Shown in pieces: positions 1 to 7,018 of a stretch of 64,000 bases of DNA. The position numbers and the translations under genes are program-made. The notes below the pieces were generated by a model. That model had not been told where the DNA came from. It saw only the letters and a program-made list of their open reading frames with translations, and did no database searches. How positions within the stretch are numbered: position 1 is the stretch's first letter; each line of letters opens with the position of its first letter. The DNA lies in NCBI RefSeq assembly GCF_001968825.1, contig NZ_MIEU01000016.1, positions 558,001 through 622,000 on the forward strand. Reading direction: 5' to 3'. The DNA comes from Tersicoccus sp. Bi-70. GTDB taxonomy: Bacteria; Actinomycetota; Actinomycetes; Actinomycetales; Micrococcaceae.

Positions 1-1798
1 CCGCCTTGACCAGCAGGTCGACGTCGATGCCGCCGTTCGCCCCCACCTGGAACAGCTCGTCCTCGATCCGGGCGACGGTCAGGTCCGAGCGGATGCCGCC
101 GGTGACGTCGAGCGCGAGGCAGTAGGTGACCGCACCGACGGACTTGTCGATCTTCCCGCTGGTCAGGTGCTGCAGCAGCGCACACGCCCCCGGCCCGGCG
201 ACCTCGACCCGCTTCAGCGGCGTCATGTCGTACATCGCCAGCGAGGTGCGGGTCGCGTGCGCCTCGGCCGCCGCGATCGGCGAGTGGAACCGGGCCGCCC
301 ACGGATCCCGCGCCCGCGGCGTCCAGTCCTCCGGCAGGGCGTCGACGAGGGCCGCGTTCGCCTCGTACCAGTGCGGCCGTTCCCACCCGCCGGCCTCCAG
401 GAACACCGCGCCGAGCTCCACCTGGCGGGGATGGAACGGGGAGAGCCGCAGGTCCCGCGGGGAGAGCCGCGGCTGGAGGGGATGGATGATGTCGTACACC
501 TCGACGAAGTTCTGCGACGACGTCTCGCGGACGTACGCCGCGTCGAGCTGCACCGCCTCGAACCGCGCGAGGTCGAGTTCGTGCAGATCCACCTCGGGGT
601 GCTCGTCGACGAGGATCTGGGCGACGGACCGGGCGACGCCGGCCGAGTGCGTCACCCACACGGCCTCGGCGATCCAGAAGCCGCGCGCCTGCGGGGACTC
701 CCCCACCAGCGACCCGCCGTCGGGCGTGAAGGAGAAGACGCCGTTGAAACCGTCCGCGATGCCGGCGGCACCGAGCGCCGGCAGCAGCTCGACGCTCTCC
801 TTCCACGACGGCTCGAAGTCCTCGGGGGTGAAGTCCAGCCGGGAAGGCATCGCGTCGGGCGTGACGGCGGCAGGGTCGGTGCGGGCGATCTCCGCCGGAT
901 CCACCGGGATCGGCCGGTGCGCATAGCTGCCGATGCCGATCGTCGTGCCCCACTGCCGGTAGTAGAGGTCGCGGTCCTGGTGCCGCAGCATCGGCAGGAC
1001 GGCGTCCACCCCGGCGGGCCGGGGCACCGCGGCCAGGTCCGGCAGCGGCGTCGTCGTGACGTACTGGTGCGCCATCGGCAGTAGCGGGACCGACAGGCCG
1101 ACCAGGTCGCCGACCTGCGGACCCCAGAAACCGGCGCACGAGACGACGACGTCGGCGTCGACGGTGTCCTCCACTCCCCCGGACGCTCGATCTGCGGCCC
1201 CTGCCCCGGGCGCGCCACCGGCGGGGATCACCCGCACGCCGCGGACCCGCCCGTCGCGCACGTCGACGCCGGTCACCCGGGTCGAGCCGACGAAGCGCAC
1301 GCCGCGTGCGCCCGCCCGCGCGATCAGGGCGTCCACCGCCCGGACGGCCGACGCCAGCCCGTCCGAGGGAATGTGCAGGGCGCCGAGCACCCGGTCCGCG
1401 TCCAGCAGCGGGAATCGCCGGCCGGCCTCGATCGGGTCCACCAGCGTGGCGTCCACACCCCACGAACGGCCCCAGCCGTGCTTGCGGTGCAGCTCGGCGA
1501 GCCGCTCCGGCGTGGTCGCCACCTCGAGGCCGCCCACCGCGGCGAACGCGTCCAGCCCGGTCAGCTTCTCCACGGTGTAGGTGGCCAGCTTCGTCATGGT
1601 CCTCGACGTGTTGATCTGGAAGACGAGCCCGGGGGCGTGCGACGTCGAGCCGCCGGTCAGGGGCAGTGGCCCCTGGTCGATCACGGTCACGTCCGTCCAG
1701 CCGCGGGCAGCGAGTTCGTCGGCGAGGTTCGCGCCGACGATGCCCGCGCCGATGATGACGACCCGCTTGCCGCGCGAAGGGGCGCCGGCCGGGCTCAT
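1..1798 (-). CDS. Dimethylglycine oxidase, 3' end beyond window
   Basis: FAD- and folate-dependent enzyme that would oxidise N,N-dimethylglycine to sarcosine, passing the one-carbon unit to tetrahydrofolate or releasing formaldehyde. About 599 codons are visible and no stop occurs before the left edge. The N-terminus has a Rossmann dinucleotide motif ([10 protein letters not shown]) and then [12 protein letters not shown], whose His matches the one that carries covalent FAD in Arthrobacter globiformis dimethylglycine oxidase, as I recall that sequence. Further on lie [20 protein letters not shown] and the start of a GcvT-like aminomethyltransferase domain ([17 protein letters not shown]). The known enzyme has about 830 residues, so roughly 230 are missing. 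The ATG overlaps the stop of the upstream Rieske oxygenase gene as ATGA, so translation is probably coupled. Sarcosine dehydrogenase is a possible alternative, but the overall match favours dimethylglycine oxidase. Confidence 0.9.
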
Positions 1799-5107: not shown

Positions 5108-7018
5108 ATGAGTATCGACCACGACAAGACGACGTCGCCTCCGGGTGACGCCCCACCGGAGGACGTGCCTCCGGTCCTGCTGGACAGCTCCGACTCGGTC
5201 GCCGAGCAGGAGACCGACCTGCTCGACACCCTCAAGCAGACCCGGCGCGAGGCGCGCCGCGGCTTCGCCAACGGGGAGGAGGTGGGCCGGCTCGACCCGT
5301 GGATCATCGGCATCGTCGGCGCGTTCGTCCTCGGCCTGGTGGTCTGGGGCTTCCTGAGCCCCACCAGCCTGTCCTCCGTCGCCTCCGGCGCCCTGACCTG
5401 GGTGCTCGACTCGGCCGGCTGGCTCTATGTGCTGGTGGCCTCCCTGTTCGTCGTCTTCGTCCTGTGGCTCGCGCTCGGCCGGTACGGCCGGATCCCGCTG
5501 GGCCGCGACGGGGAGGCCCCGGAGTTCCGGACCGGGTCCTGGATCTCGATGATGTTCGCGTGCGGCATGGGCATCGGCCTGATGTTCTTCGGGGTCGCCG
5601 AGCCGCTGACCCACTTCGTCACTCCCCCACCGGGCACCGTCGACGGGCAGACCTCCGCGGCGATCCAGACCGCCATGGCCACGTCCCTGTTCCACTGGAC
5701 GTTGCACCCGTGGGCGATCTACGCCGTCGTCGGCATCGCCATCGCCTACAGCACCTTCCGGCTGGGACGGAAGAACCTGCTCTCCGAGGCGTTCGTGCCG
5801 CTGTTCGGCCGCCGCGGCGTCGACGGCTGGGGCGGCAAGGTGATCAACATGCTCGCGATCTTCGCGACGCTGTTCGGCTCCGCCGCCTCGCTCGGCCTCG
5901 GCGCCCTGCAGATCGGCGCCGGGCTGCAGTTCAACGGCGTGATCGGCGAGAGCGCCACCCCGGTGCTCGTGCTCATCATCGCCCTGCTGACCGCCGCCTT
6001 CGTGGCGTCGGCCGTCTCCGGCATCGAGCGCGGCATCCAGTGGCTCGCCAACACCAACTCGGTCCTCGCCGTCATCCTGGCGGTCTTCATCTTCGTCGTG
6101 GGCCCGACGATGTTCATCCTCAACCTCATCCCGGCGGCGGTCGGCGACTACTTTCGGGATCTGGCCGAGATGGCGTCCCGGACCTCCGCCACCGGCGGCG
6201 ACGGGCTGGCCACGTGGCTCTCGGGCTGGACCATCTTCTACTGGGCGTGGTGGATCTCGTGGACGCCCTTCGTCGGGCTGTTCATCGCCCGCATCAGCCG
6301 CGGCCGCACCATCCGGCAGTTCGTCACCGGCGTGCTGCTCGTGCCGTCGGTGATCTCGGTGATCTGGTTCGCCATCTTCGGCGGGACGGCGATCTTCCAG
6401 CTGCAGCAGAACCCGGACGGGGGCCTGGCCGAGGCGATCAGCGACTCCAGCTCGACGATCTACGTGATGTTCCAGAACCTGAACCTGGCGCCCGGGCTGC
6501 TCGGGGCCCTGGTCATCCTGGCGATGGTCCTGACCGCGATCTTCTTCGTGACCGGCGCGGACTCGGCGTCGATCGTCATGGGGTCGCTGTCCTCCAACGG
6601 CACCATGGAGCCGAAGAAGCCGCTCGTCGTGTTCTGGGGTGTGCTGATGGGCGCCGTCGCGGCCGTCATGCTCCTGGCCGGTGGCGACAAACCCGACGAG
6701 GCCCTGACCGGCCTGCAGAACATCACGATCGTCTCGTCGCTGCCGTTCGTGATCGTGATGATCCTGCTGTGCGTGGCCCTGGTGAAGGACCTCCAGCGGG
6801 ACCCGATCTGGTTGCGCCGGCAGCTCTCCGAGTCGATCCTGCGGCGGACCATCCGCGACGGGGTCGAGGAGCACGGGCACCAGAAGTTCGACCTGGTCAC
6901 CCGCCGGTCCGATGCCCCGGAGACCGGCAGCTTCCCCGCCGTCGACGCGACCGCCGGCGGCGAGCCGATCTACACCAGGCGCAGCCGGCGCGTCCGCTTC
7001 CCCTGGCAGCGGGACTGA
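5108..7018 (+). CDS. BCCT-family betaine/carnitine/choline transporter
   Basis: Secondary transporter of 636 residues with about 12 membrane segments starting near residue 60. Family marks are ACGMGIGLMFFGVAEPLTHF and the tryptophan-rich segment WTIFYWAWWISWTPFVGLFI, which in BetP-like proteins lines the substrate box. It would bring a quaternary amine such as glycine betaine into the cell, probably with sodium. The N-terminal 60 residues are acidic and cytoplasmic, and the C-terminus ends in a basic stretch (RRSRRVRFPWQRD). In BetP the tails sense osmotic stress, but here that is only an inference. The ATG follows AGAGGAAA. It lies beside genes for betaine breakdown, so a catabolic as well as an osmoprotective role is likely. 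A strong hairpin follows the stop. Confidence 0.92.
   Translation: MSIDHDKTTSPPGDAPPEDVPPVLLDSSDSVAEQETDLLDTLKQTRREARRGFANGEEVGRLDPWIIGIVGAFVLGLVVWGFLSPTSLSSVASGALTWVLDSAGWLYVLVASLFVVFVLWLALGRYGRIPLGRDGEAPEFRTGSWISMMFACGMGIGLMFFGVAEPLTHFVTPPPGTVDGQTSAAIQTAMATSLFHWTLHPWAIYAVVGIAIAYSTFRLGRKNLLSEAFVPLFGRRGVDGWGGKVINMLAIFATLFGSAASLGLGALQIGAGLQFNGVIGESATPVLVLIIALLTAAFVASAVSGIERGIQWLANTNSVLAVILAVFIFVVGPTMFILNLIPAAVGDYFRDLAEMASRTSATGGDGLATWLSGWTIFYWAWWISWTPFVGLFIARISRGRTIRQFVTGVLLVPSVISVIWFAIFGGTAIFQLQQNPDGGLAEAISDSSSTIYVMFQNLNLAPGLLGALVILAMVLTAIFFVTGADSASIVMGSLSSNGTMEPKKPLVVFWGVLMGAVAAVMLLAGGDKPDEALTGLQNITIVSSLPFVIVMILLCVALVKDLQRDPIWLRRQLSESILRRTIRDGVEEHGHQKFDLVTRRSDAPETGSFPAVDATAGGEPIYTRRSRRVRFPWQRD

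Follow-up and report, generated by a model that had tools for sequence, protein, structure and literature searches.

How does a Rieske oxygenase encoded at the start of a 64,000-nucleotide stretch of Tersicoccus sp. Bi-70 (the window; contig NZ_MIEU01000016.1) receive its electrons, and on which substrate does it act? The gene lies in a cluster with an N,N-dimethylglycine oxidase (DMGO), an FAD reductase, a separate Rieske ferredoxin and a carrier of the BCCT family. Glycine betaine, an osmolyte that protects against salt, is very common and also serves as a source of carbon, nitrogen and methyl groups. We consider it highly likely that this locus imports and degrades glycine betaine, the predicted substrate, through an oxygenase served by a three-component chain. 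The best reading of the oxygenase itself is a separate glycine betaine demethylase lineage, apparently driven by a chain of the aromatic-dioxygenase type.

The cluster

Coordinates are window positions 1-64,000, except where contig numbering (C16) is marked. An earlier note on this DNA had described five genes together, and family searches confirmed all five in place: the Rieske oxygenase, FAD reductase, ferredoxin, BCCT carrier and DMGO. Ferredoxin and carrier are on the plus strand, and the other three genes are on the minus strand.

1-1798, minus strand: 5' part of the DMGO gene (Pfam DAO, FAO_M and GCV_T)
1795-2943, minus strand: Rieske non-heme iron oxygenase of 382 aa, Group V type, predicted to demethylate glycine betaine
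3071-4447, minus strand: BphA4/HcaD-type FAD ferredoxin reductase, 458 aa (Pyr_redox_2 2e-50, Reductase_C 3e-15)
4448-4687, no strand: 240-bp gap separating the divergent reductase and ferredoxin genes, from sequence reading
4688-5026, plus strand: Rieske [2Fe-2S] ferredoxin, about 112 aa, probable start GTG 4688
5108-7018, plus strand: BetP-like BCCT transporter, predicted glycine betaine importer, 636 aa (Pfam BCCT 2e-173)

The oxygenase matches the Pfam Rieske (3e-19) and Ring_hydroxyl_A (1e-48) families, and its stop codon overlaps the DMGO start in the ATGA at 1795-1798, as read directly from the sequence. The DMGO gene is truncated by the window start and ends at C16:557258. Its full 846-aa protein carries the DAO, FAO_M and GCV_T domains expected of the enzyme and scores 1052 bits against 1pj5, the solved N,N-dimethylglycine oxidase.

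The earlier note had likened the electron chain to that of aromatic dioxygenases, and both of its proteins bear this out. The reductase combines Pyr_redox_2 with Reductase_C, and its relatives in PDB are BphA4 and kin; it does not reach the HcaD equivalog cut-off (233 vs 450 bits). The ferredoxin has the CxH...CxxH motif and the family score of a three-component oxygenase ferredoxin (138 bits against NF007422, cut-off 113; the substrate in that family's name is not implied), and its PDB relatives are the biphenyl and toluene dioxygenase ferredoxins. Its first in-frame start is TTG 4613, and GTG 4688 was preferred for the ribosome-site-like AAGGGAG. The region at 4448-4687 is the presumed control region; a promoter scan of 1700-7300 found no sigma-70-like site.

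Class of the oxygenase

According to excerpts of PMC10952381 and PMC7948474, Group V oxygenases act on quaternary ammonium substrates and have a bridging Glu205 in place of Asp, some with CxxC at 206/209. The same excerpts assign Tyr or Phe203 to Group Va (carnitine, choline and benzalkonium enzymes) and Asn203 to the Group Vb demethylases (GbcA, BmoA, Stc2), and an excerpt of PMC9508527 terms Group V two-component. The window oxygenase has Rieske ligands C80, H82, C101 and H104, the bridging E205, C206 and C209, the iron ligands H208 and H213, and F203. The six ligands C80, H82, C101, H104, H208 and H213 are present in 26/26 clade rows of our alignment, as are Glu205 and C206/C209, in keeping with Group V. 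The stretch NFMECYHC occurs in 111/111 fetched clade sequences. D332 is invariant in 31/31, and we infer that it is the facial-triad Asp, because it lies opposite Asp325 of YeaW.

Position 203 sets the enzyme apart from GbcA, since Phe203 was found in 26/26 clade rows and Asn203 in 17/17 rows of GbcA/Stc2 type; the window enzyme thus has the Group Va residue and not that of GbcA. Against the curated GbcA model NF058607 it scores 204 bits (cut-off 670); the closest Stc2-type plasmid proteins reach 485-494 bits there, and two CntA-like proteins 164-173. The carnitine pocket of CntA comprises Tyr225, Phe258, Asn270, Tyr295, Tyr315 and Phe319; residue 225 is Asp, Glu or Arg in the clade, with numbering that shifts after 213.

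A maximum-likelihood tree of 74 rows included the window oxygenase together with 25 of the 111 sequences fetched for its clade. Support was 100/100 for the oxygenase clade, 100/100 for the GbcA/Stc2 type and 99/96 for the CntA type, which has one unlabelled row inside. Constraining the clade to group with the GbcA/Stc2 type was rejected (p-AU 5.9e-5, in a test run once the tree was known). No GbcA/Stc2-type row passed the GbcA cut-off, and Pseudomonas GbcA itself is absent from the tree. The clade fell on the CntA side under midpoint rooting, a weak placement in which the CntA-type rows are long branches that meet. On these sequences there is good support both for the unity of the clade and for its standing apart from the GbcA/Stc2 type. 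The predicted oxygenase structure (pLDDT 71) was closest to the Stc2 type and CntA, tied at Z 26.4-27.0, with aromatic oxygenases at 24.8 or less; because of the tie, the fold comparison was left out of the choice of class.

The oxygenase, on this sequence evidence, is not a GbcA. The earlier note had supposed a system distinct from GbcA/GbcB and proposed a tree with GbcA, CntA and Stc2; in our tree the enzyme joined neither the GbcA/Stc2 type nor CntA, and formed its own clade. As tree and Phe203 both place it outside GbcA, its substrate is left to gene context.

Electron transfer partners

The genome measures 3.48 Mb and is given as 100% complete. Ring_hydroxyl_A and Reductase_C each occur once in it, in two genes that lie side by side. 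The earlier note had named a GbcB-like reductase elsewhere in the genome as one finding that would overturn its proposal. The NAD domain that GbcB-type reductases carry (PF00175) matched at two genomic places at E <= 0.001. One is a PaaE-like protein whose gene adjoins one resembling enoyl-CoA hydratase, and the other is a membrane protein resembling ferric reductases; both were named by reading and not by family search. A GbcB candidate elsewhere was ruled out on that reading. Another oxygenase as the client of the reductase was likewise ruled out, the genome having a single Ring_hydroxyl_A protein. With one such oxygenase, one Reductase_C protein and no GbcB-type candidate other than the PaaE-like one, the sequence evidence indicates that oxygenase, reductase and ferredoxin very probably serve each other.

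Besides the oxygenase and ferredoxin, the genome encodes four more Rieske domains. From reading, and not from a Pfam scan, we take these to be a suf-linked ferredoxin, a DUF2231-like membrane protein, a small lipoprotein and QcrA. A Rieske ferredoxin domain in locus L009 (1429-1752, minus strand) resembles, on reading, the suf-linked ferredoxin.

Neighbourhoods were compared around the best 80 of 588 confirmed relatives, so the counts describe the nearest relatives. These loci span 17 genera and 8 families, with a bias to Streptomycetaceae (34) and Micrococcaceae (30), and were fetched with flanks of 8 kb or less. Neighbour genes were identified by clustering around the 80 oxygenases, NCBIfam scans of representatives of the main clusters, and tblastn counts. 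The reductase lies in the flank of 76/80 loci and the ferredoxin in 67/80, a conservation that excludes chance grouping. A GbcB-type match was found in 1/80 loci, and was weak, while YeaX matched in 0/80 at E <= 1e-8. The probable partner at these loci is of the Reductase_C type and not the one expected of a two-component Group V enzyme. Protein families, cofactor ligands, gene overlap, conservation and sole-copy status were all read from the sequence.

Gene context and the predicted substrate

DMGO adjoins the oxygenase in 13/17 genera. Among the 80 loci, the neighbours were PurU (41), choline dehydrogenase (39), betaine-aldehyde dehydrogenase (BADH; 39, including 36 of the 39 loci with choline dehydrogenase), mycothiol-dependent formaldehyde dehydrogenase (39), BCCT (33), DMGO (32), SHMT (13) and SoxB (11). 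The SoxB count was 24/80 before cross-matches to DMGO were removed, and an identity threshold lowered DMGO from 33 to 32. Representatives of PurU, the formaldehyde dehydrogenase and choline dehydrogenase pass NCBIfam equivalog cut-offs; those of BADH (633 vs 669 bits) and SoxB (a fragment, 476 vs 529) fall below theirs. Some loci come close to a whole pathway. One locus (L064) has, on one strand, the formaldehyde dehydrogenase, oxygenase, an FdhF-type oxidoreductase, DMGO, SHMT and SoxB. Another (L090) has ferredoxin, oxygenase, an FdhF-type gene, an IclR-like gene in reverse, choline dehydrogenase, BADH and DMGO, in that order. Together, the recurrent neighbours appear to outline a route from choline through glycine betaine and sarcosine to serine.

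Two pathway enzymes score above cut-off in the window's own genome: SoxB, encoded about 26 kb away from the end of DMGO, and a mycothiol formaldehyde dehydrogenase. No betA-type choline dehydrogenase match was found in this genome, which fits import of ready-made betaine. The BCCT carrier scores 555 bits against BetP, 328 against the trimethylamine transporter, 306 against the choline transporter and about 159 against the carnitine antiporter CaiT, and lies below the NCBIfam cut-off for glycine-betaine BCCT proteins (536 vs 650 bits). Gene context, then, points strongly to glycine betaine as the probable substrate.

In the pathway that we propose, the BetP-like carrier would import glycine betaine. 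Electrons would pass from NADH to the FAD reductase, to the separate Rieske ferredoxin and on to the Rieske cluster of the oxygenase, the direction and the use of these partners being predicted, and would then cross Glu205 to the mononuclear iron, which, if CntA is a guide, would be that of the neighbouring subunit. Using O2, the oxygenase would hydroxylate one N-methyl group, which would be lost as formaldehyde to leave dimethylglycine, the predicted product. DMGO would convert dimethylglycine to sarcosine, sarcosine would go to the sarcosine oxidase encoded about 26 kb away, and formaldehyde to the mycothiol-dependent formaldehyde dehydrogenase.

A GntR-like gene lies beyond DMGO in the window's own locus and has relatives in 15/80, and a gene whose IclR-like representative is below every cut-off recurs in 58 of the 80. 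Arthrobacter globiformis is the source of the solved dimethylglycine oxidase; in strain NBRC 12137 (L035), DMGO-like genes flank the oxygenase cluster at 2513-5020 and 15997-17100, the second cut by the locus end.

Alternative readings

Several observations weigh against glycine betaine demethylation by the clustered three-component chain. Phe203 is the chief, chemical doubt: it is a Group Va mark, known betaine demethylases carry Asn203, and trimethylamine and glyoxylate are conceivable as products. The structural model has pLDDT <50 over 205-257, at the active site. The reductase is absent from 4/80 loci and the ferredoxin from 13/80, several but not all of them on short contigs. Among 31 further whole-genome loci with flanks of about 1.5 kb, part of them probably from genomes already represented among the 80, the reductase was present in 12/31 and the ferredoxin in 14/31 (GbcB-type match, 0/31). 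Contiguity with the reductase and ferredoxin is therefore common, not universal, and some clade members may use partners encoded elsewhere. SoxB lies nearby in just 11 of the 80 loci and SHMT in just 13, and 5/80 have none of the pathway genes that were searched.

Demethylation of some other betaine (proline betaine, carnitine, gamma-butyrobetaine or similar) is improbable, though it survives best among the alternatives. The substrate is not fixed by sequence alone, and the stachydrine demethylase Stc2 ties with CntA in fold score; on the other side, DMGO and choline-oxidation genes recur in the neighbourhood, and no gene for proline or carnitine catabolism was recognised among the recurrent neighbours, by reading with no dedicated search. 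Moreover, Stc2/GbcA-type enzymes exist separately in 8/394 genomes of the class Actinomycetes. These score 372-415 bits and belong to the GbcA/Stc2 clade, and at 7 of the 8 loci a GbcB-like reductase is next to the oxygenase.

A choline monooxygenase would oxidise choline to betaine aldehyde as in plants, so that the cluster would both make and use betaine. We regard this as very unlikely. Choline dehydrogenase already covers that step in the 39 loci that have it, nearly always with BADH; the oxygenase gene overlaps DMGO, which acts one step beyond betaine; and the carrier is closer to BetP than to choline carriers. These outweigh the facts that Group Va includes such enzymes, with an aromatic residue 203 as here, and that the window's genome has no betA-type match.

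Cleavage of the CntA kind, in which attack on the methylene of glycine betaine would give trimethylamine and glyoxylate, has an equally slight chance. It draws on Phe203, on the clade's falling to the CntA side when the tree is rooted at its midpoint, and on the medium activity of CntA proteins on glycine betaine given in an excerpt of PMC9508527. However, the DMGO overlap points the other way; DMGO, PurU, formaldehyde dehydrogenase and SoxB suit dimethylglycine and formaldehyde; and no trimethylamine-handling gene was recognised among neighbour clusters present in at least 6 loci (by NCBIfam or reading, with no dedicated search).

Least probable of all is an oxygenase independent of the adjacent reductase and ferredoxin (which would serve, for example, a P450) or fed by PaaE: some relatives have no reductase inside the fetched flank, and two-component oxygenases can often work with non-native reductases according to an excerpt of PMC12445004, but reductase and ferredoxin are neighbours across several families, and this genome has only one Ring_hydroxyl_A oxygenase and one Reductase_C protein (P450s were not searched for).

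Distribution

Orthologues of the oxygenase (61% identity or more) were found in 48/394 genomes of the class Actinomycetes, and a GbcA above cut-off in 0/394. Elsewhere in the phylum, more distantly related Group V enzymes (about 29-43% identity) are frequent; 61/296 genomes match the oxygenase at E 1e-40 or better, orthologues included. In each of four genomes (G023, G193, G618 and G641), two oxygenase copies share at least 70% identity with the window enzyme; the copies are separated by about 22-220 kb or belong to different contigs. Two further Group V-like clades occur in other families of Actinomycetota (L111-L131), with Tyr203 in 20/21 and Leu207 in 13/21. In these loci of 2.7-4.1 kb, 0/21 match any tested reductase or ferredoxin, and 8/21 lie beside an open reading frame distantly like DMGO or SoxB.

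Significance

Three-component Rieske systems, Group V oxygenases and glycine betaine demethylation are each already known. A search of the open-licence literature gave no account of the three combined in a separate clade, and no characterised actinobacterial glycine betaine demethylase was recognised in open-licence titles and abstract starts, where an earlier description may have been missed. We think it likely that the clade is a second, independently derived glycine betaine demethylase lineage joining a Phe203 Group V oxygenase to a three-component chain, that Actinomycetes demethylate betaine mainly through it, and that it supplies the first step so far lacking in Arthrobacter, Kocuria, Streptomyces and relatives among the mycobacteria.

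If so, annotation by the curated GbcA model misses the enzyme, as the counts of 0 and 48 among the 394 genomes illustrate. Two working rules for Group V would also be broken, namely that its members are two-component and that its demethylases carry Asn203, and the clade would serve as a naturally occurring test case for the way in which the reaction depends on residue 203 and on the redox partner. Soil actinobacteria would then most likely live on glycine betaine through a chain unlike that of the known betaine demethylases.

Other genes in the window

A luciferase-like monooxygenase and an MFS carrier adjoin the cluster (7096-10090, minus strand); weak homologues of the two lie near the oxygenase in 3/80 and 5/80 loci, respectively. 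The gene at 11563-13779 (minus strand) encodes a metallopeptidase-like protein (Reprolysin_5) that has five LGFP repeats and a Pro-Thr linker of low complexity.

Comparison with known systems

GbcA/GbcB (BmoA/BmoB) of Pseudomonas and Chromohalobacter is the closest system in predicted reaction, from glycine betaine to dimethylglycine and formaldehyde. It shares the Rieske cluster and mononuclear iron, Glu205, CxxC and a gene setting of dimethylglycine, sarcosine, PurU and SHMT functions. It differs in its one-protein reductase, where the window has an FAD reductase and a separate Rieske ferredoxin, and the window oxygenase lies below the NF058607 cut-off, has Phe203 and belongs to a different clade. 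Across the 17 GbcA/Stc2-type loci of the tree, a GbcB-like match was found in 15 (one partial; two are the query loci themselves), and a window-type reductase or ferredoxin in 0/17.

The carnitine monooxygenase CntA/CntB (YeaW/YeaX) of Group Va shares the aromatic residue 203, Glu205, CxxC and, under midpoint rooting, the side of the tree. Identity to CntA is 27-29% in structural alignment, Tyr225 is lost, there is no YeaX-like partner and the context is that of betaine, not carnitine. The Group Vb stachydrine demethylase Stc2 shares betaine N-demethylation, predicted here, and the fold (Z 26.9), whereas the Stc2 side has Asn203, an adjoining GbcB-like reductase (L095) and a place in the other clade. 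The BphA3-BphA4, TodB-TodA and HcaC-HcaD chains belong to the same ferredoxin and Reductase_C-type FAD reductase families; unlike the biphenyl, toluene and phenylpropionate dioxygenases, the window has a Group V oxygenase with bridging Glu for Asp, and no beta-subunit gene was recognised in the cluster.

Dimethylglycine oxidase and sarcosine gene clusters of Arthrobacter were reportedly described by Meskys in 2001, a study cited in PMC3534580. Arthrobacter clusters share with the window system the pathway of DMGO, SoxBDAG, GlyA and PurU. Arthrobacter Rue61a is reported to grow on glycine betaine in an excerpt of PMC3534580, which calls its genome-predicted pathway 'incomplete' and leaves the first, betaine-demethylating enzyme unnamed. 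The cluster described here would supply that step of Arthrobacter metabolism, which lacks a named enzyme in the excerpted literature (PMC3534580).

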